DNA of 35,922 bases, from assembly GCA_035945995.1 (NCBI GenBank), contig DASYZR010000139.1:1-35922 (forward strand). Reading direction: 5' to 3'. The DNA is from a bacterium (lineage in GTDB: Bacteria; Sysuimicrobiota; Sysuimicrobiia; Sysuimicrobiales; Segetimicrobiaceae). Positions 1,058 to 35,922 of the stretch are shown piece after piece; positions within the stretch are counted from its first letter, which is position 1; each line of letters begins with the position of its first letter. Below the pieces are notes generated by a model. That model saw only the letters and a program-made list of their open reading frames with translations, made no database searches and had not been told where the DNA came from. The position numbers and the translations under genes were made by a program.

Positions 1058-2066
1058 CTGGGAGCCGGCCGGAGCGCCGCTCGGCGAGTTCGAACTGATC
1101 GAGCGGCTGCGGGCCATCGTCCCCGGCGCCGGCCGGGGCGTGATCGTCGGCATCGGCGACGACGCGGCCGTCCTGCGGGCCGGTGCCGCGATGCTGGCCA
1201 CCTGCGACGTGCAGGTGGAGGGCGTGCACTTCACCCGCAACCTGTGCTCGCCGGCCGACGTCGGCTGGCGGGCGCTCGCCGTGAACCTGAGTGACATCGC
1301 GGCCATGGGCGGGGAGCCGCGCTACGCGCTCGTATCCCTCCTGATCCCGCGGCCGGCCGCCACCGCCGCGCTCGACGGCCTCTACACAGGACTGGCGGAG
1401 CTCGCCCGCCTGCACGGCGTCGCCGTCGTCGGCGGCAACGTCTCCGCCACGTCCGGGCCGCTCGCCGTGGACGTGACGCTGCTGGGCGACGTCGAGCAGG
1501 CGGTGCTTCGCCGCGGCGCACGGCCGGGCGACGGGATTTGGATCACCGGCCACACCGGCAAGGCGGCGGCGGGACGCTTTGTGCTCGAACACCCCGACGC
1601 CGACGTCCCGGCCCGCGAGAGCCTGGCCGCCGCGTACCGGCGTCCGTCCCCGCGTGTGGCGGCCGGCCGCGTGCTCGGCGGCCTCGCCCGTGCGGGACTC
1701 GTGACGGCCATGATCGACACCAGCGACGGCACGGCGAGCGACCTCCTCCATCTCGCCGAGGCGTCGCGGGTCGGGGTGTGGCTGGACGCGGCCCGGCTCC
1801 CGGTGCCCGCGGGCTTCGCCGAGGCGGTGCGCGCCGCCGGGGTGGCGGCCGAGGTTTGGACCCTCGGCGGCGGCGAAGATTACGAATTGCTCATCACCGC
1901 CCCGGAAGGCTTTGGCGGCCGCGTCGGCGAGCTGACGGCGACGGCCGGCGTGGAGGTCACCCGCATCGGCGACGTGCTCTCCGAAGCCGAGGGCCGCTGG
2001 GTGGCCGCCGCGGACGGCGAATGCCGGCCGCTGCGGCCCGCCGGCTGGAATCATCTCGCTCCGTGA
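1041..2066 (+). CDS. thiL: Thiamine-monophosphate kinase
   Basis: ThiL phosphorylates thiamine monophosphate to the active cofactor thiamine diphosphate. The 341-aa protein has the PurM/AIR-synthase-like fold signatures of the family: GEFELIERL at the N-terminus, IGDDAAVL (Mg/ATP-binding aspartates), VNLSDIAAMGG, GGNVSAT and DTSDGTASDLLHLA. The GTG start at 1041 lies inside the end of thiE and gives a standard N-terminus, so translation is probably coupled to thiE. About 15 residues precede the conserved GEFELI segment, slightly longer than usual. A short gap of 27 bp separates it from thiD. Confidence 0.95.
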   Translation: MAGGTDWEPAGAPLGEFELIERLRAIVPGAGRGVIVGIGDDAAVLRAGAAMLATCDVQVEGVHFTRNLCSPADVGWRALAVNLSDIAAMGGEPRYALVSLLIPRPAATAALDGLYTGLAELARLHGVAVVGGNVSATSGPLAVDVTLLGDVEQAVLRRGARPGDGIWITGHTGKAAAGRFVLEHPDADVPARESLAAAYRRPSPRVAAGRVLGGLARAGLVTAMIDTSDGTASDLLHLAEASRVGVWLDAARLPVPAGFAEAVRAAGVAAEVWTLGGGEDYELLITAPEGFGGRVGELTATAGVEVTRIGDVLSEAEGRWVAAADGECRPLRPAGWNHLAP

Positions 2067-2093
2067 GGAAGACTCAATAGGGAAGGGACGACG

Positions 2094-2885
2094 ATGGCGA
2101 TTGCGCGGGCGCTCTCGATCGCAGGCTCGGATTCCGGCGGCGGGGCCGGCATTCAAGCCGACCTGAAGACGTTTTCCGTATTGGGAGTGTACGGCATGAC
2201 GGCGATCACCGCGATCACCGCCCAGAACACGAGGGAGGTGACCGGCATCGTCGAGATCCCGCCCGAGATGGTCGCCCGGCAGATCGACGCGGTCGTCTCC
2301 GACATCGGGGTCGACGCGGCGAAGACCGGCATGCTGAGCAGCGCGCCGATCATCGAAGCGGTGGCGGGCCGCATCCGGCACCACCGGCTCGAGAACCTGG
2401 TGGTGGACCCGGTGATGATCGCGAAGAGCGGTGCGGCGCTGCTGCGGCCGGACGCCGTCGACGCGCTCCGGCGCCGGGTGCTGCCGCTCGCGCTGGTGGT
2501 GACGCCGAATCTGCCGGAAGCGGAGGCGCTGTGCGGCGCGCCGATCCGCACGCCGGCCGACGTGGACGAAGCGGCCCGCCGCATCGCCGGCCTCGGGCCG
2601 CGCTACGTCGTCATCAAGGGCGGCCACCTCGAGGGCCCCGCGGTCGATACGCTGTACGACGGCGAGCGGTTCGAGCGGCTCGAGGCGGCGCGCATCGCGA
2701 CCCGGCATACGCACGGCACGGGATGCGTGTTCTCCGCGGCCATCACCGCGGAGCTCGCGCGGGGCGAGCCGCCGCGCACGGCGGTCCGGACGGCGAAAAC
2801 GTTCATCACCGCCGCGATCGAGCGGGCGCTGCCCCTCGGGGGGGGACACGGACCGGCCAATCCAATGCATCCGCTGGGCGGATAG
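2094..2885 (+). CDS. thiD: Hydroxymethylpyrimidine/phosphomethylpyrimidine kinase
   Basis: ThiD phosphorylates HMP twice to the diphosphate used by ThiE. The 263-residue ribokinase-fold protein begins with SIAGSDSGGGAGIQADLKTF, the family's substrate-binding signature. It continues with AITAQNT, VVDPVMIAKSG, TPNLPEAEAL and the C-terminal HTHGTGC motif that forms the anion hole. The ATG at 2094 is preceded by a GGGAAGGGA ribosome-binding segment. It closes the thiamine cluster and is followed after 32 bp by hslO on the same strand. Confidence 0.95.
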   Translation: MAIARALSIAGSDSGGGAGIQADLKTFSVLGVYGMTAITAITAQNTREVTGIVEIPPEMVARQIDAVVSDIGVDAAKTGMLSSAPIIEAVAGRIRHHRLENLVVDPVMIAKSGAALLRPDAVDALRRRVLPLALVVTPNLPEAEALCGAPIRTPADVDEAARRIAGLGPRYVVIKGGHLEGPAVDTLYDGERFERLEAARIATRHTHGTGCVFSAAITAELARGEPPRTAVRTAKTFITAAIERALPLGGGHGPANPMHPLGG

Positions 2886-2917
2886 TCGAAACGCAAGACG
2901 CAGGAGGACACAGCGCA

Positions 2918-3814
2918 ATGCGGGACTACATGGTCCGCGCCACGGTGGCGGGCGAGCGCGTCCGCGCCCTGGCAACGGTCACGACGGAGACTGTGGAAGA
3001 CGCCCGGATCAGACACGCCACGTCCGCCACGGCCACGGCGGCGCTCGGCCGCAGCCTCACCGCGGCCGCGCTCCTCTCGGCGGGCCTCAAAGACGGGCAA
3101 TTGGTGACCCTGCGGGTGCTCGGCGACGGTCCGGCGGGCGGCATCATCACGCAGGCCGACGCGGCCGGCCGCGTGCGGGGCTATGTCATGAATCCGCAGG
3201 CCGATCTCCCCGCCACGCCGGCGCGCAAACTCGACGTCGGCGGGCTCGTCGGCCGCAAGGGAACGCTGCACGTCACCCGCGACCTCGGGATGCGCACGCC
3301 CTACTACGGGTCGGCGCCGCTGGTCTCCGGGGAGATCGCGGAAGACCTCGCCGCCTACTTCGCCCGCTCGGAGCAGGTCCCATCGGCGGTCGCGCTCGGC
3401 GTGCTGGTCGGCCGCGACCTGCGTGTGCTCGCGGCCGGCGGTCTGTGCGTCCAGGCGTTGCCCGGCGCAGACCCGGACGTCGTCGCGCAGGTCGAGAGCC
3501 GCCTGCGGTCGCTGCCCCCGATCACGGACCTCGTCGCCGCCGGGCAGACGCCCGAGCAACTCATGACGGCGGCGCTGGACGGCCTGACGTCGGACGGGCT
3601 CGCCACCGGGCCGGTCACGTTCACGTGCCAGTGCAACCGGCAGCGGGTCGAGGAGATGCTGAGCGTGCTCGGGGTGGACGAACTCGAGTCGCTGCTGGCC
3701 CAGGAAGGGCAGGCGGAGGTGACGTGCCGGTTCTGCGGAGACCGCTACGTGCTGAACGGAGACGAGATGCGCGCGCTGATCACGGCCCTCCGGCGTGGCG
3801 AGGCGGCCGTCTAG
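2918..3814 (+). CDS. hslO: Redox-regulated molecular chaperone Hsp33
   Basis: Hsp33 is a cytoplasmic holdase switched on by oxidative unfolding. The start is ATG 2918, eight bases or so after a strong AGGAGG; the frame is open much further upstream but nothing there resembles the family. The 298-aa protein begins MRDYMVRATVAGERVRALA, typical of Hsp33. It ends with the zinc redox switch Cys237-x-Cys239 and Cys270-x2-Cys273 (CQC and CRFC), so all four zinc ligands are intact and the switch should work. The gene converges on rpmB with only 9 bp between the stop codons. Confidence 0.95.
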   Translation: MRDYMVRATVAGERVRALATVTTETVEDARIRHATSATATAALGRSLTAAALLSAGLKDGQLVTLRVLGDGPAGGIITQADAAGRVRGYVMNPQADLPATPARKLDVGGLVGRKGTLHVTRDLGMRTPYYGSAPLVSGEIAEDLAAYFARSEQVPSAVALGVLVGRDLRVLAAGGLCVQALPGADPDVVAQVESRLRSLPPITDLVAAGQTPEQLMTAALDGLTSDGLATGPVTFTCQCNRQRVEEMLSVLGVDELESLLAQEGQAEVTCRFCGDRYVLNGDEMRALITALRRGEAAV

Positions 3815-3823
3815 CGCGGGCGG

Positions 3824-4015
3824 TCAGGCGACCCGGGTCACCTTGCCGGCCTTCAGACATGCCGTGCAGACCATGACGCGCCGCGGCGAGCCGTCGATGA
3901 GGGCCCGCACGCGCTGCAGGTTCGGGTTGAACCGCCGCTTCGTCTTGTGATGCGAGTGGCTGACCAGGTTGCCGGTGCGCGGCTCTTTGCCGCACACGGC
4001 GCAGCGCCGTGCCAT
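3824..4015 (-). CDS. rpmB: 50S ribosomal protein L28
   Basis: This 63-aa protein is bacterial bL28. It starts [16 protein letters not shown], has the [19 protein letters not shown] core typical of L28, and ends [13 protein letters not shown]. Two CxxC pairs show that it is the zinc-binding (C+) form. A near-perfect Shine-Dalgarno AAGGAGGT lies a few bases before the ATG. It stands alone on the minus strand between hslO and recG, with a plausible promoter of its own. Confidence 0.96.
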
Positions 4016-4046
4016 TGGACTTACCTCCTTGGGAACACCGCCGCTC

Positions 4047-4076
4047 AGTCTAGCACATCGCCGGCGGCAGGGGCAA
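4047..4076 (-). promoter_or_regulatory. Possible sigma70-type promoter of rpmB
   Basis: On the minus strand, TTGCCC (4071-4076) and TAGACT (4047-4052) are separated by 18 bp. Each matches the -35 or -10 consensus at four of six positions. The -10 is preceded by TG one base away (extended -10). It sits about 30 bp before the rpmB start. It is inferred from sequence only. Confidence 0.4.
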
Positions 4077-4168
4077 CGTCACGCGCGTAGAAGAGAGAGG
4101 CCCGAATACGCCGGTCGGCGAGGCACCTCCCGACACACGACCCACCTCGACGCAGGAGGACGGGCGGC

Positions 4169-6379
4169 ATGCCGAGCGCACGTAGGGCACCGACCCGTGC
4201 GGCCGGCGCCCCGCCGCTGCGCGCCCCCGAAGGACCCACCTCCGGCTCCGCGGTCCCCGGCGGCGGGCCCGCGCGCGAAGGCGATCCTCTCGACACGCCG
4301 CTCCGGTATCTCCGCGGCGTAGGGCCGGACCGGGCGAAGCGCCTCGAGGACCGCCTCGGTCTGCGCACCGTCGCGGATCTCCTGTACCGGCCTCCCAGGC
4401 GGGTCGAGGACCGGCGCACCCTGCACCAGATCTACGACCTCACCCACGGCACGGTGGACACCGTCGAGGGGGTCGTCGGCCGCATCCGGGCGTTCCGGGC
4501 GCGCCGGCGGCGGAATTTCGTCATCGTCAAAGCCGCGATCACCGACGGGTCCGGGGTGCTGCACGCGGTCTGGTACAACCAGGGCTACATCGCCCGGCAG
4601 CTGCCGGCCGGGGCGCGCGTGATTCTGCACGGCCGCGTGCAGCGGCAGGCCGGCGAAATCCAGATGATCGCCCCGGAGTTCGAGGTGCTCGATCCGGGCG
4701 AGGATACGCTGCACGCCGGGCGGATCGTGCCGGTGTACGCGGCCACGGAGGGACTCAGCCAGCGCGTGCTCCGCGCCACCGTCATGCGGGCGCTCGACGA
4801 GTACGTGCCCTCCGTCCGGGAATGGCTGCCCGAGGCGCTGCTCCGGCGCTACGAGTTTCCGTCGCTTCCGCGGGCGCTCCGCGATCTTCACTTTCCCGAC
4901 ACACTCGACGATCAGGAGCGCGCGCGGCGGCGGCTGGTGTACGAGGAACTGCTGCTGTTTCAGACGCTGCTGCTGCAGCATAAACAGGCGCGGGAGCGCG
5001 AACCGAAGGGGATCCGGTACGGCGACGCGGCCCCGTTGGTGGACCGGTTCGCCGCGCGCCTGCCGTACCGGCTGACCCGGGCCCAGCGGCGGGTATTGGA
5101 CGAGATCGGCGGCGACATGCGGGCGCCGCACCCCATGAACCGGCTGCTGCAGGGCGACGTGGGCTCCGGCAAGACCGTGGTCGCCGCGGAGGCGCTGCTG
5201 CGCTGCATCGGGGGCGGGGCGCAGGGTGCTTTGATGGCGCCCACCGAGATCCTCGCCGGGCAGCATTACCTCACGCTGCGGACGCTGCTCGAGCCGATCG
5301 GCGTCACCCCGGTCCTCCTGATCGGCGGACTGTCGCGCGCGGCACGCCGCGAAGCGCTCGACCTGATCCGCGAGGGGGGCGCCGATCTCGTTATCGGCAC
5401 GCACGCCCTCATTGAAGAGGACGTGACCTTCGCGCGGCTCGGTCTCATCGTCGTCGACGAGCAGCACCGCTTCGGGGTCGCGCAGCGGGCGGCGCTCAGG
5501 GGCAAAGGCGAGCGGCCCGACGTGCTCGTCATGACCGCGACGCCGATCCCCCGGACGCTCGCGCTCTCGCTGTACGGCGACCTCGACGTCTCGGTGATCG
5601 ACGAACTGCCGCCCGGCCGCACGCCGATCCGCACCTACGTCCGGCCGGGGGCGAGCCGTCCGCAAATCTACGCCTGGATCGCCGAGCAGGTTCGCGAGGG
5701 CCGCCAGGCGTACGTGGTGTGTCCCCTCATCGAGGGATCCGACGCGTTGCAGGCCGAGGCGGCGACCGACCTGGCCGCGCGCCTCGCCGCCGGCCCCTTG
5801 GCCGGGCTCCGCGTCGAGGTGCTGCACGGGCGCATGAGGGTCGACGACCGCGACCGGATCATGCGATCACTCCGCGCGGGCGGCATCGATGTGCTGGTCG
5901 CGACGACCGTGATCGAGGTCGGCATCGACGTTCCCAACGCCACGGTCATGGTGATCGAGGACGCGGATCGCTTCGGGCTGTCGCAGCTCCATCAGCTGCG
6001 CGGCCGGGTGGGCCGCGGGCCGCACCCGTCGCACTGCGTGCTCGTCGCGGATCCGAAGACCGAGGACGGGAGCGTCCGCCTCGACGCGATGCGCGATACC
6101 GCCGACGGATTCGTCATCGCGCAGCGCGACCTCGAGCTCCGCGGCGTCGGCGAGCTGCTCGGCGAGGCGGGCCGCGAGGCCCTGCGGCAACACGGACTGG
6201 GCGACCTCCGGATCGCCGATCTCGTGCGCGACCGGGACTGGCTCGAACGGGCGCGGGCCGACGCCGCGGCGATGCTCGCCGCCGACCCCGCGCTGCGGCA
6301 ACCGGCGCACCGGCCCGTCGCCCGGGCCCTCCACGCGCGGTTCGGCGCGGCGCCGGTCGACAACGTGCGCGTCGGCTGA
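4169..6379 (+). CDS. recG: ATP-dependent DNA helicase RecG
   Basis: RecG drives branch migration and fork reversal at stalled forks and Holliday junctions. The 736-residue protein has an N-terminal DNA-binding wedge region (GVGPDRAKRLEDRLGL, then DLLYRPPRRVEDRR). The helicase core follows, with Walker A GDVGSGKT at 329-336, the Walker B variant DEQH at 430-433, MTATPIPRTLALS, and motif VI QLRGRVGRG. It has a proline/glycine-rich extension of about 40 residues before the conserved start, giving a length slightly above the usual 680-700. ATG 4169 is chosen because AGGAGG lies 9 bp upstream. The stop shares a base with the rsmD start. Confidence 0.96.
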   Translation: MPSARRAPTRAAGAPPLRAPEGPTSGSAVPGGGPAREGDPLDTPLRYLRGVGPDRAKRLEDRLGLRTVADLLYRPPRRVEDRRTLHQIYDLTHGTVDTVEGVVGRIRAFRARRRRNFVIVKAAITDGSGVLHAVWYNQGYIARQLPAGARVILHGRVQRQAGEIQMIAPEFEVLDPGEDTLHAGRIVPVYAATEGLSQRVLRATVMRALDEYVPSVREWLPEALLRRYEFPSLPRALRDLHFPDTLDDQERARRRLVYEELLLFQTLLLQHKQAREREPKGIRYGDAAPLVDRFAARLPYRLTRAQRRVLDEIGGDMRAPHPMNRLLQGDVGSGKTVVAAEALLRCIGGGAQGALMAPTEILAGQHYLTLRTLLEPIGVTPVLLIGGLSRAARREALDLIREGGADLVIGTHALIEEDVTFARLGLIVVDEQHRFGVAQRAALRGKGERPDVLVMTATPIPRTLALSLYGDLDVSVIDELPPGRTPIRTYVRPGASRPQIYAWIAEQVREGRQAYVVCPLIEGSDALQAEAATDLAARLAAGPLAGLRVEVLHGRMRVDDRDRIMRSLRAGGIDVLVATTVIEVGIDVPNATVMVIEDADRFGLSQLHQLRGRVGRGPHPSHCVLVADPKTEDGSVRLDAMRDTADGFVIAQRDLELRGVGELLGEAGREALRQHGLGDLRIADLVRDRDWLERARADAAAMLAADPALRQPAHRPVARALHARFGAAPVDNVRVG

Positions 6380-31479: not shown

Positions 31480-32539
31480 CGACGCCGACCGCCTCGGCAA
31501 TGGTATTGAGCCCATCGCGGTTCAGGCGAGCCAGCAGGCCGCCGGCCAGCCGGCGCGGGAGGGCCGGACCGCCGTAGACAAATCCGGTGTAGAGTTCGAC
31601 CAGGCTGGCGCCGGCTTGGATCATTCGATACGCGTCGTCCGCCGTGAAGATTCCGCCGACCCCGATGATCGGGAGGCGGCCCGCCGTGAGCCGGTGGAGC
31701 CGGCCGACAATCCGCACCGCCTGGGCGAAGAGCGGCCGGCCGCTCAGGCCCCCGGCTTCCTCCCAGGCCGCGCTCGCAAGCCCGTCGCGCCTGAGCGTGG
31801 TGTTCGTGGCCACGATGCCGTGCGCGCGATCGCTGATCGCCTCGACGACCACGTCCAGTTCGGCGTCCGTGAGATCAGGGGCGATCTTCACGAAGAGCGG
31901 CTTCTCGCCGAGGGCGCGGTTGCGCGCCGAGAGCGCCTCGAGGAGCGGCACGATGGCGTCCCGCGTCTGCAACTGCCGCAATCCCGGCGTGTTGGGCGAC
32001 GAGACGTTGACGACGACGAAGTCGGCGTGCGGCTGCAGCCGGTCGAACGAGTATACGTAATCATCGACCGCCCGCTCGTTTGATGCGGCGCCGCTGCGGC
32101 CGATGTTCACCGCGAGCGGGATGGGGTAGGGCCGCCCGCGGCGGAGCCTCGCGAGCCGCACCTCCATGGCGTCGGCGCCCGGTGAATTGAAGCCGAGCCG
32201 GTTGATCAGGGCCTGGTCGTCGGGCAGTCGGAATACGCGGGGCCGGGGATTCCCAGGCTGGGCGAGCCCGGTGACCGTTCCCACTTCCGCGAACCCGAAG
32301 CCCAAGGCCGGCCACGCCCACAACGCTCTCGCCGCCTTGTCGAACCCAGCGGCCAGGCCCACCGGAACCGGAAACCGGAGACCTGCCACGATCATGGCGA
32401 GCCGTGGATCCGGGGCGGACCGCCGGGACGCCCGGGCCAGCACCGGCTCCACCGCGCCAAGGCACGTCAGCGCGAGGTCGTGACTCAGTTCCGGATCGAG
32501 TCGAAACAGAAGGGCACGCACGAACGCGCGGTAGATCAC
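31472..32539 (-). CDS. pyrD: Quinone-dependent dihydroorotate dehydrogenase (class 2)
   Basis: PyrD oxidises dihydroorotate to orotate in pyrimidine synthesis and feeds electrons to quinones at the membrane. The 355-aa protein has the class 2 N-terminal helical segment (FVRALLFRLDPELSHDLAL), then VGLAAGFDK, GFGFAEVGTVT, NRLGFNSPG, the catalytic loop NVSSPNTPGLRQL with Ser181, KIAPDLTD, ATNTT and the phosphate site GVGGI. GTG 32539 is the start and overlaps the stop of the PIN toxin gene, so translation of a biosynthetic gene may depend on the toxin-antitoxin transcript. Confidence 0.95.
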   Translation of the reverse strand: MIYRAFVRALLFRLDPELSHDLALTCLGAVEPVLARASRRSAPDPRLAMIVAGLRFPVPVGLAAGFDKAARALWAWPALGFGFAEVGTVTGLAQPGNPRPRVFRLPDDQALINRLGFNSPGADAMEVRLARLRRGRPYPIPLAVNIGRSGAASNERAVDDYVYSFDRLQPHADFVVVNVSSPNTPGLRQLQTRDAIVPLLEALSARNRALGEKPLFVKIAPDLTDAELDVVVEAISDRAHGIVATNTTLRRDGLASAAWEEAGGLSGRPLFAQAVRIVGRLHRLTAGRLPIIGVGGIFTADDAYRMIQAGASLVELYTGFVYGGPALPRRLAGGLLARLNRDGLNTIAEAVGVAR

Positions 32540-33012
32540 GTCGCCGGTGTGAGCCAGGCCCGCGCGGCGGCCGCTGAGTCCAGGCGCGTCAGGTTGGCCA
32601 GGAGATCGAACCCAGCATCAAAGCTGACGACCGCGCGATATCCGAGCTCGTCGGCGGCGACACCGAGCATCGCATCATGGAAGTCCAGCGCGCCGGCCGT
32701 TTCCCGCATCACCGCCACACAGCGGCCGAACCATCGGGGCACGTGCGGATACAGCCACGTCACGGCCTCAGGCGGGACCGCGCCGAGGAGCCGGTCCGTC
32801 AATTGGGGAAAGGCGTCGGCCTGACCCCGCTCCCGGCATCGGCGGCCAAGTGCCGTCAGCACCTCGTCGATCACGCAGTCCGGGGTAATCGTCAATACTC
32901 GCCGTTCCCGCAAGACTTCGTGCACGCGTGCGGCCTCCTGGTGCCAGACGTCCCGCTGATCGAACAAGGCGACGAGATAGTTGGAATCCAGACACACAGG
33001 CTCACCGGTCAT
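32536..33012 (-). CDS. vapC: PIN-domain ribonuclease toxin, VapC type
   Basis: VapC toxins are Mg-dependent RNases that cut tRNA or rRNA. The start is ATG 33012, overlapping the antitoxin stop by 11 bp; the frame is open further upstream without PIN similarity. The 158-aa product has the acidic active-site set: Asp9 in CLDSNYLVALFD, Glu50 in PDCVIDEVL, Asp110/Asp113 in LDFHDAML, and Asp132 in VVSFDAGFD. The end overlaps the pyrD start. With the AbrB-type protein upstream it forms a standard toxin-antitoxin pair. Confidence 0.88.
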   Translation of the reverse strand: MTGEPVCLDSNYLVALFDQRDVWHQEAARVHEVLRERRVLTITPDCVIDEVLTALGRRCRERGQADAFPQLTDRLLGAVPPEAVTWLYPHVPRWFGRCVAVMRETAGALDFHDAMLGVAADELGYRAVVSFDAGFDLLANLTRLDSAAAARAWLTPAT

Positions 33013-33250
33013 ATCGGGCCGCATCGGCAACGGCGTCGCCGCCGAGAGCGGCGGTGCCGACGACCGCGTCGAACCGGCCGGCGCCGACCGGCACCGCCAC
33101 CGCATGCCCTTGTACCGCAGGTTCGAGCACAACCTGACGCCCCTCGACGGTGACCCGTAGCAGATCCCCCTCACGCAACGCGAGCCTCTCTCGGACCGAC
33201 GCCGGCAGCGTAATTTGTCCCTTGCGCTTCAGGCGGACGACCTGGTCCAT
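33002..33250 (-). CDS. vapB: AbrB/SpoVT-type antitoxin, VapB
   Basis: An 82-aa protein. The first 45 residues form an AbrB/MazE-like swapped-hairpin DNA-binding domain (VVRLKRKGQITLPASVRERL, then LREGDLLRVTVEGRQVVL). The remainder, which probably wraps the PIN toxin, ends DAVADAARYDR. GGAGG lies 7-8 bp before the ATG. Such antitoxins bind their own promoter, and TATCA/TGATA half-sites lie 29-49 bp upstream. It is divergent from the mrfA-like helicase gene. Confidence 0.88.
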   Translation of the reverse strand: MDQVVRLKRKGQITLPASVRERLALREGDLLRVTVEGRQVVLEPAVQGHAVAVPVGAGRFDAVVGTAALGGDAVADAARYDR

Positions 33251-33354: not shown

Positions 33355-33383
33355 TTCACGGCGAACGCCAGTTCGCGTATATA
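33355..33383 (+). promoter_or_regulatory. Probable promoter of the mrfA-like operon
   Basis: TTCACG (33355-33360) and TATATA (33378-33383) are separated by 17 bp. Each matches the consensus at four of six positions. The AT-rich stretch TATATACATGTAAA, containing the palindrome TACATGTA, stands out here. The predicted transcript would start about 20 bp before the ATG at 33412, with GGGAG as ribosome-binding site. It overlaps the LexA-type palindrome. Confidence 0.5.
33361..33376. promoter_or_regulatory. LexA (SOS) box-like palindrome
   Basis: GCGAAC-GCCA-GTTCGC is a perfect 6-bp inverted repeat with a 4-base centre. It contains CGAAC-N4-GTTCG, the core of the Gram-positive/actinobacterial LexA operator. 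The four central bases deviate from the Bacillus consensus, which prefers purine-N-purine-pyrimidine there. The box fills the spacer between the predicted -35 and -10 of a DNA-repair helicase gene, the usual position for repression. Confidence 0.6.
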
Positions 33384-33411
33384 CATGTAAACTCGTCGCG
33401 GGAGCCGGAGC

Positions 33412-35691
33412 ATGACGCTGGACCAAATCATCGAGGCGCTGCACACCCGCCCGCGGTTCGCGCCGCAGTTCACCGCCTGGCACACCATTCCGGAGCGGCC
33501 GGCCGAATTCGCGCCGTTTCCCCCCGGCCTCGACGCGCGGCTCTTGGCCTCACTCGGCCGCACCGGCATCCGGGAGCTCTACTCGCATCAGGCCGAGGCG
33601 TACCGCCTCGTCCGGGGCGGAGCCGACGTGGTGGTCGTCACCCCGACCGCGTCCGGCAAGACCCTCTGCTACAACCTCCCGGTGCTCGATACCGTGCTGC
33701 GTGAGCCCGAGGCGCGCGCGCTGTACCTGTTTCCGACCAAGGCGCTCGGCGCGGACCAGGTCGATGAACTGCAGACGGTCACCGGGGCTCTGGGCGCCGA
33801 CGTGCGCGCCTTCACGTACGACGGCGACACCCCGGCCGACGCGCGGCGCACGATCCGGACCGCGGGCCACGTCGTCGTCACCAACCCGGACATGCTGCAC
33901 ACCGCGATCCTGCCGCACCACACCAAGTGGCTGCGCCTGTTCGAGAACCTACGCTACGTCGTGCTCGACGAGCTGCACCACTACCGCGGCGTGTTCGGCT
34001 CGCATCTCGCGAACGTGCTGCGGCGTCTCGCGCGGATCTGCCGCTTCTACGGCAGCGCGCCGCAGTTCATCTGCTGCTCGGCGACGATCGGGAACCCCCG
34101 CGAACACGCCGAGCGGCTGACCGGCCGGCCGATGGCGGTGATCGATCGAAACGGCGCGCCGTCCGGCGAGCGCGTGATCGGCCTCTACAATCCGCCGGTG
34201 GTCAATGAGCATCTCGGCATCCGCGCGGACGCCGTCCGGGAATCGGTCGCCCTGGCCGGCGAGCTGTTGGGCGGCCGGATTCAAACGATCTTCTTTGCGC
34301 GGTCGCGGCTCGCGGCGGAACTCCTGACCACGTACCTGCGCGCGGCCGCCGAGCGGCGGGCGCTGCCGCCGGACGCCATCTGCGGGTACCGGGCCGGCTA
34401 CCTGCCGTCGGAACGGCGCCGCATCGAAGCCGGCCTGCGCAGCGGGACCGTCCGCGCGGTCGCCGCAACGAACGCGCTCGAGCTCGGCATCGACATCGGC
34501 CAGCTGAGCGCCGCGGTGCTCGTCGGTTATCCGGGCACGATCGCCAGCACGTGGCAGCAGATGGGACGGGCGGGCCGGCGCCGCGAGCGCGCGCTGGCCG
34601 TCCTGGTGGCGACCAGCGCGGCGCTGGATCAGTTCATCGTGCGGCATCCCGACTACGTGCTGCGGCAGGGCGCGGAGGAAGCCCGCACCAATCCCGACAA
34701 CCTGCTCGTCCTGGCCAGCCACCTGAAGTGCGCGGCGTTCGAGCTGCCGCTGCGGGACGGCGAGACCTTCGGGCCGAGCACGCTGCCCGAGATTCTGACC
34801 TATCTCGAAGAGGCGCGCGTGCTCCACCACGAGGAGGACGCCTGGCACTACGTGGCCGAGGCGTACCCGGCCCAGGAGGTGAGCCTGCGGAGCGCGAGCC
34901 AGGAGAACGTCGTGATTATCGATACGACGGACCCGCGGCCGCGCGTGATCGGCGAGATCGATCTCGCCTCGGCCCCGGCGTTCGTGCACGAGGACGCGAT
35001 CTACCTGCACCTGGGACAGCAGTATCACGTGGACCGGCTGGATTGGGACGAGCGCAAGGCCTACGTCCGGCGCGTCGAGGTCGACTACTACACGGATGCG
35101 CAGATCGCCACCGATCTGCGCGTGCTGGCGGAGTTCGCGCGCGTGGAGGACGCGGCGCACGGCGAGGTCACCGTCACCTTCCGGCCGACGATCTTCAAGA
35201 AGCTCACGCTCTCGACGCACGAGAACGTCGGCTTCGGGACCATCCATCTGCCGGAGACGACGCTCCACACCACCGCGGCGTGGTGGGTGTTCCCGCGGGC
35301 GCGCGCCGCCGATCTCGACCCCGTCTTCCGCGGGGCGAACGGGAACGACGCGCTGCAGGGCGCGCTGCTCGGCGCCGCCCACGCCCTCCACAATCTGGCG
35401 CCGCTCTACCTCATGTGCGATCCGCGCGATCTCGGGGCGCTCGCGGAGATTCGATCGCCGCATACCGGTGAGCCGACGGTGACGGTCTACGAACAGGTGC
35501 CGGGCGGCGTCGGACAGGCCGAACGGCTCTACGCCCTGCGGCACGAGCTCCTACAGGCCGCCGCGGCGCTCGTCGAGGGCTGTGCCTGCGAGGCCGGCTG
35601 TCCCTCGTGCGTCGGCCCGGTCCTCGCGATCGGCCCGGACGCGAAGCGCCGGACGCTCCGGCTGCTGCGGCACGTCTGTGTCCCTGCCTGA
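33412..35691 (+). CDS. mrfA: DEAD/DEAH-box DNA repair helicase, MrfA (YprA) family
   Basis: MrfA is a 3'-5' DNA helicase that in Bacillus acts with the nuclease MrfB to repair mitomycin-type adducts. The 759-aa protein has Walker A TPTASGKT (77-84), Walker B DELH (186-189), SATIGNP, and motif VI QMGRAGRR. The C-terminal DUF1998 domain ends with the zinc-binding cysteines C724-x-C726-x3-C730-x2-C733 (CACEAGCPSC), spaced as in MrfA. Length is near the 749 aa of the Bacillus protein. The ATG follows GGGAG by 7 bp. A downstream mrfB-like start overlaps its end. Confidence 0.9.
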   Translation: MTLDQIIEALHTRPRFAPQFTAWHTIPERPAEFAPFPPGLDARLLASLGRTGIRELYSHQAEAYRLVRGGADVVVVTPTASGKTLCYNLPVLDTVLREPEARALYLFPTKALGADQVDELQTVTGALGADVRAFTYDGDTPADARRTIRTAGHVVVTNPDMLHTAILPHHTKWLRLFENLRYVVLDELHHYRGVFGSHLANVLRRLARICRFYGSAPQFICCSATIGNPREHAERLTGRPMAVIDRNGAPSGERVIGLYNPPVVNEHLGIRADAVRESVALAGELLGGRIQTIFFARSRLAAELLTTYLRAAAERRALPPDAICGYRAGYLPSERRRIEAGLRSGTVRAVAATNALELGIDIGQLSAAVLVGYPGTIASTWQQMGRAGRRRERALAVLVATSAALDQFIVRHPDYVLRQGAEEARTNPDNLLVLASHLKCAAFELPLRDGETFGPSTLPEILTYLEEARVLHHEEDAWHYVAEAYPAQEVSLRSASQENVVIIDTTDPRPRVIGEIDLASAPAFVHEDAIYLHLGQQYHVDRLDWDERKAYVRRVEVDYYTDAQIATDLRVLAEFARVEDAAHGEVTVTFRPTIFKKLTLSTHENVGFGTIHLPETTLHTTAAWWVFPRARAADLDPVFRGANGNDALQGALLGAAHALHNLAPLYLMCDPRDLGALAEIRSPHTGEPTVTVYEQVPGGVGQAERLYALRHELLQAAAALVEGCACEAGCPSCVGPVLAIGPDAKRRTLRLLRHVCVPA

Positions 35692-35922
35692 GACCTCCGC
35701 CGCGGAGAGCCTTCGGGACCGGCTCCGGCGATACGGCGCCGGATTCACGCGCACGGCGCATCCGGCGCCCACCCGCCACGGAGTTGAGCCTCCGACGGCA
35801 CGGGCGGGGGACCCCGCGACAGACGGAGCCCGCCCCGCGACAGACGGGGTCGAGGTCGTCCGCGCGCGCTACGCCTTCGCCCACCGCCACGGATCCGTGG
35901 ATCTCGGCGCGAGCCTGGAGTG
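35678..35922 (+). CDS. mrfB: N-terminus of a MrfB (YprB)-like ribonuclease H-fold exonuclease, truncated by window end
   Basis: GTG 35678 lies 14 bp inside the end of the helicase gene and opens a frame that runs off the window. About 81 residues are visible: SLPETSAAESLRDRLRRYG, a proline/threonine/arginine-rich linker, and the beginning of a conserved part (ARYAFAHRHGSVDLGASLE). The N-terminal ESLRDRLRRYG pattern and the position after mrfA match YprB/MrfB, but the nuclease motifs lie outside the window, so the assignment rests mostly on gene order. Confidence 0.55.
   Translation, partial: MSLPETSAAESLRDRLRRYGAGFTRTAHPAPTRHGVEPPTARAGDPATDGARPATDGVEVVRARYAFAHRHGSVDLGASLE

Follow-up and report, generated by a model that had tools for sequence, protein, structure and literature searches.

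The palindrome upstream of mrfA in the analyzed window (35,922 nucleotides, one entire contig) is in all likelihood an SOS operator, through which a LexA-family repressor would control the mrfA-mrfB operon and release it upon DNA damage. Judging from sequence comparison, SOS control of the mrfAB operon is very probable both here and in many Bacilli. MrfAB excises mitomycin adducts, and the pathway was discovered only recently. A LexA-type operator has been kept at mrfA both in the uncultured order to which the studied genome belongs and across Bacilli, which predicts that this pathway lies within the SOS response. The mitomycin-repair pathway would then probably be DNA-damage-inducible in many bacteria, and this prediction can be tested directly in laboratory Bacillus strains. 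The features of the mrfA region are collected in Table 1.

Table 1. Features of the mrfA region, with positions in the window.
Feature	Position	Strand	Basis and remarks
PIN-domain toxin gene	32536-33012	-	divergent from mrfA
MazE/AbrB-type antitoxin gene	33005-33250	-	divergent from mrfA
Candidate -35, TTCACG	33355-33360	+	inferred from hexamer score, 4/6
LexA-type operator, GCGAAC-GCCA-GTTCGC	33361-33376		direct reading; core near-invariant at mrfA promoters of the order
Candidate -10, TATATA	33378-33383	+	hexamer score, 4/6; 17-bp spacer from -35
mrfA (759 aa; DEAD-box helicase carrying the MrfA zinc-binding domain)	33412-35691	+	6znp, Pfam
mrfB, 5' part	35678-35922	+	GTG start, 14-nt overlap with mrfA stop; ends at contig edge

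The best PDB match of the mrfA product is B. subtilis MrfA/YprA (6znp), with an E-value of 9e-259 over nearly the full length. The cysteines of its CxCxxGCPSC motif align with those of 6znp, and the Pfam domains DEAD, Helicase_C, WHD_HRQ1, and MZB (E = 4.9e-21 for the last) were found in the protein. These results agree with the first-pass annotation, which had described a MrfA-like helicase with intact zinc cysteines. By its sequence, which combines the SF2 core with the MZB zinc domain, the gene is a genuine mrfA. The same annotation had also proposed a mrfA-mrfB operon, and the overlapping GTG reading frame in the window supports it. In three relatives (L016, L022, and L023), the downstream reading frame shows the same -14 overlap, and mrfB is intact in relatives. 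The protein encoded at the equivalent place in L022, the only relative's protein tested, gave an RNase_H_2 match (E = 1.3e-32) and a weak TPR match. At one locus of the order (L037 of genome G030, 1501-4957), the mrfA frame extends to 887 aa and the MrfB-like reading frame downstream is short, for which a frameshift, a fusion, or an assembly error is possible.

Direct reading of the sequence confirmed that the box is flanked by TTCACG and TATATA, and that its core 14-mer, CGAACGCCAGTTCG (33362-33375), ends 36 bp ahead of the mrfA ATG (33412). The core has the palindromic form CGAAC-N4-GTTYG. Within the 36-kb window, the exact CGAAC-N4-GTTCG is present only at mrfA; the 44 further matches have two mismatches each, which is near chance level. 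The search of the whole genome (4.15 Mb, 181 contigs) yielded 11 exact sites versus one for the reversed control pattern. Other exact boxes precede ruvC, a RecA-like/ImuA-like gene (weak family matches), and an Rv2578c-type radical SAM gene. The radical SAM gene (L014, 1-1482, minus strand) is interrupted by an intein; upstream of it, 18 bp separate a perfect CGAACATATGTTCG box from the start of the gene. In the case of a Ku gene (L012, 544-1398, minus strand), CGAACACCCGTTCG was found 102 bp upstream, and SOS-linked end joining via this box is possible. From their sequence, TTCACG and TATATA are plausible as the -35 and -10 elements of mrfA. Hexamer pairs as good as these occur 0.36 times per kb on the plus strand of the contig, which has a G+C content of 72%, and the G+C content of the intergenic region upstream of mrfA is 52%. 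We counted against the SOS reading that the hexamers are weak and that their placement relative to the box varies among families of the order. By sequence, the mrfA box may overlap promoter elements, as these weak hexamers suggest; in Bacilli the overlap is plainer.

The conservation of the box was determined in the 27 genomes of the order, the studied one included, in which the 5' end of mrfA was read and is intact. The exact core was present at mrfA in 24 of them, and a core with at most one mismatch in 26; from base composition, we estimate that a 180-bp upstream region would contain the exact core by chance in about 2 of 10,000 cases. The box is conserved in both close and distant relatives. 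The ten core columns are identical in 26-27 of the 27 mrfA promoters, whereas the flanks and the four central positions are variable; within one genus, the central bases are GCCA, GTCA, or ATCC. The B. subtilis LexA consensus has the centre RNRY. The GCCA at the mrfA box does not fit the centre of the strict B. subtilis DinR box, CGAACRNRYGTTYG, which we counted against the SOS reading, and the first-pass annotation had called these bases atypical; in this lineage, however, the centre is simply unconstrained at mrfA, and for this reason we do not claim membership in the strict DinR consensus. Many genomes of the order encode a second MrfA-like helicase, mrfA2 (46% identical; G000:C5:14411-16615). 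No box was found in the mrfA2 promoters of 19 genomes, where the best match had 2-4 mismatches, which rules out that every MrfA-like helicase gene carries the box.

The studied genome contains two intact lexA genes (L001, 1380-2106, and L002, 1390-2115), the products of which are 48% identical. LexA1 has the LexA DNA-binding and S24 peptidase domains, and both LexA1 and LexA2 exceed the NCBIfam lexA cut-off. Upstream of lexA1 we found the box CGAACAGGTGTTTG, upstream of lexA2 the boxes CGTACATATGTTCG and CGTACATTAGTTCG, 34 bp apart, and upstream of recA the box CGAACAAACGTTTG, all of the same general kind as the mrfA box. Across the order, lexA was found in 42 of 43 genomes, and most of them have both paralogues. 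The lexA1 box (at most two mismatches) is present in 29 of 30 promoters, nearly always ending in GTTTG, and the recA upstream box in 29 of 30 genomes. All 34 lexA2 promoters contain at least one, usually two, CGTAC- or CGAAC-type boxes with at most two mismatches. The self-operators of the paralogues are distinct: LexA1 has a single CGAAC-N4-GTTTG, and LexA2 usually has a pair of CGTAC-N4-GTTCG boxes with a distance of about 34-36 bp between them. The order offers a natural setting in which the operators of two LexA paralogues have diverged. Taken with the operator and its conservation, the lexA and recA boxes support the proposal that the mitomycin-repair helicase and nuclease are under SOS control. 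The first-pass annotation had named three findings that would speak against this proposal, and all three were checked; none of them was obtained, as lexA is present, its self-operators resemble the mrfA box in general type, and close relatives retain the box at mrfA.

Boxes at mrfA were also observed outside the order. Among 80 mrfA loci of other lineages, which include Bacillota and Chloroflexota, the best upstream match had at most one mismatch in 21 (0.3 expected) and two mismatches in 27 (4.9 expected). In one family of Bacilli, CGAAC-N4-ATTCG, which differs by one mismatch, was present in 29/29 readable mrfA promoters (0.04 expected); this count leaves out locus L333, where the position read lies inside the gene. 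The box of this family is usually located one base ahead of a TAAAAT/TATAAT-like -10, and in most Bacilli mrfA promoters the -10-like element begins 1-2 nt past the box. For a class-wide sample of Bacilli, the 30 genomes that best matched B. subtilis MrfA were taken, four of which also belong to the family sample; a box with at most two mismatches was present in 29 of these promoters (0.8 expected). One of the 29 is from a genome with a MrfA that shares 96% identity, over the query, with the B. subtilis protein; its box, CAAACAAATATTCG, is weaker and lies beside the -10. The lexA genes of the box-bearing Bacilli genomes mostly have ordinary CGAAC-N4-GTTTG self-operators, and most of the genomes checked encode a single full-length LexA. 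Because the Bacilli boxes adjoin the -10, the spacer geometry recurs beyond the order, and because the Bacilli mrfA promoters share the same arrangement, it is not peculiar to this lineage. The first-pass annotation had assigned SOS control to this lineage; it is supported there, but the Bacilli have the same arrangement, and the control is probably not lineage-specific. Since the box is conserved in both the order and the Bacilli, SOS control of mrfAB looks old and widespread.

A further point that we counted against the SOS reading is that the mrfA box ends in GTTCG, but GTTTG is the ending of both the lexA1 and the recA operator. When half-sites are compared, the mrfA box consists of two CGAAC, the LexA1 operator of CGAAC and CAAAC, and the LexA2 operator mostly of CGTAC and CGAAC. 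The CGAAC half-site is common to both paralogues, which makes both of them candidates for the mrfA box, and either or both may act there. It is a real possibility, somewhat short of an even chance, that the box is mainly a LexA2 operator and that mrfAB belongs to a LexA2 sub-regulon and not to the LexA1/recA core, which is a compatible variant of the SOS reading. The GTTCG half-site, present in LexA2 self-operators and absent from those of lexA1 and recA, points in this direction, but CGTAC, the usual other side of LexA2 self-operators, was never seen at mrfA, and CGAAC occurs in LexA1 operators too. The distribution of the genes was compared in a table of the order genomes (G000-G042) compiled by hand. 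When genomes with a completeness of 90% or more are counted, 22 of the 24 with LexA2 have mrfA, versus none of the 5 without LexA2 (Fisher p ~2e-4, kinship not corrected for); however, the joint absences cluster in about three lineages, and most of the Bacilli genomes checked combine a mrfA box with a single full-length LexA. Unlike mrfA, imuA does not follow LexA2 across the order; each occurs without the other, and the assignment of LexA2 to an imuA cassette is therefore unsupported. We regard the co-occurrence of LexA2 and mrfA as suggestive of LexA2 control. That mrfAB of the order is the target of a dedicated LexA2, forming a damage sub-regulon gained and lost with the operon and apart from the LexA1/recA core, is a tentative proposal that we hold to be rather unlikely.

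It is very improbable that the palindrome serves another regulator, for instance the divergent MazE-like antitoxin/PIN pair. For the MazE-like family, it is established that the antitoxin binds palindromic sites in the promoter of its own gene, and this pair starts at 33250 on the minus strand, in the intergenic region shared with mrfA. However, the PIN gene was not adjacent to mrfA in any relative examined, and the box is conserved in relatives whose mrfA has no PIN gene beside it, which led us to reject the antitoxin-operator reading; in addition, lexA, recA, and ruvC are preceded by the same kind of box. In favor of a functionless chance palindrome, one might point to the 11 exact genome sites, roughly half of which seem to be located within coding sequence and may have arisen by chance. 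This reading can be practically dismissed, since the core is kept while the centre is free to vary, both in 26 of the 27 genomes of the order and in the Bacilli.

Under SOS control of mrfAB, a LexA-family dimer would occupy the palindrome in the promoter of mrfA, at a place that either overlaps the -35 and -10 elements or falls between them, and would block RNA polymerase. Upon DNA damage, RecA filaments would promote LexA self-cleavage, and the operator would be freed, which would allow transcription of the mrfA-mrfB operon. The MrfA helicase and the MrfB exonuclease would then remove lesions, for example mitomycin adducts, by excision.

Two observations go beyond the first-pass annotation, namely the order-wide pair of LexA paralogues with distinct self-operators and the presence of mrfA tracking that of LexA2. 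Neither SOS control nor other regulation of mrfAB is reported in the accessible text of the MrfA literature examined (PMC11194089, PMC12458937, and PMC12345164), although an earlier report is possible, and the accessible text of the LexA-regulon literature searched (PMC9380542, PMC4234289, and PMC3998124) does not name mrfA as a target. The mrfA box has the same half-sites, spacing, and promoter placement as the LexA/DinR box CGAAC-N4-GTTCG of Bacilli and Actinobacteria, and such boxes also occur at lexA and recA, in the studied genome as well as across the order. The operon resembles mrfAB (yprAB) of B. subtilis (PMC11194089, 6znp) in the helicase with a zinc domain, the downstream exonuclease gene, and the gene overlap. 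Two LexA paralogues per genome are also described for Leptospira interrogans (lexA1/lexA2) in the accessible text of PMC3789691; compared with that account, the pair studied here is order-wide and has distinct self-operators.
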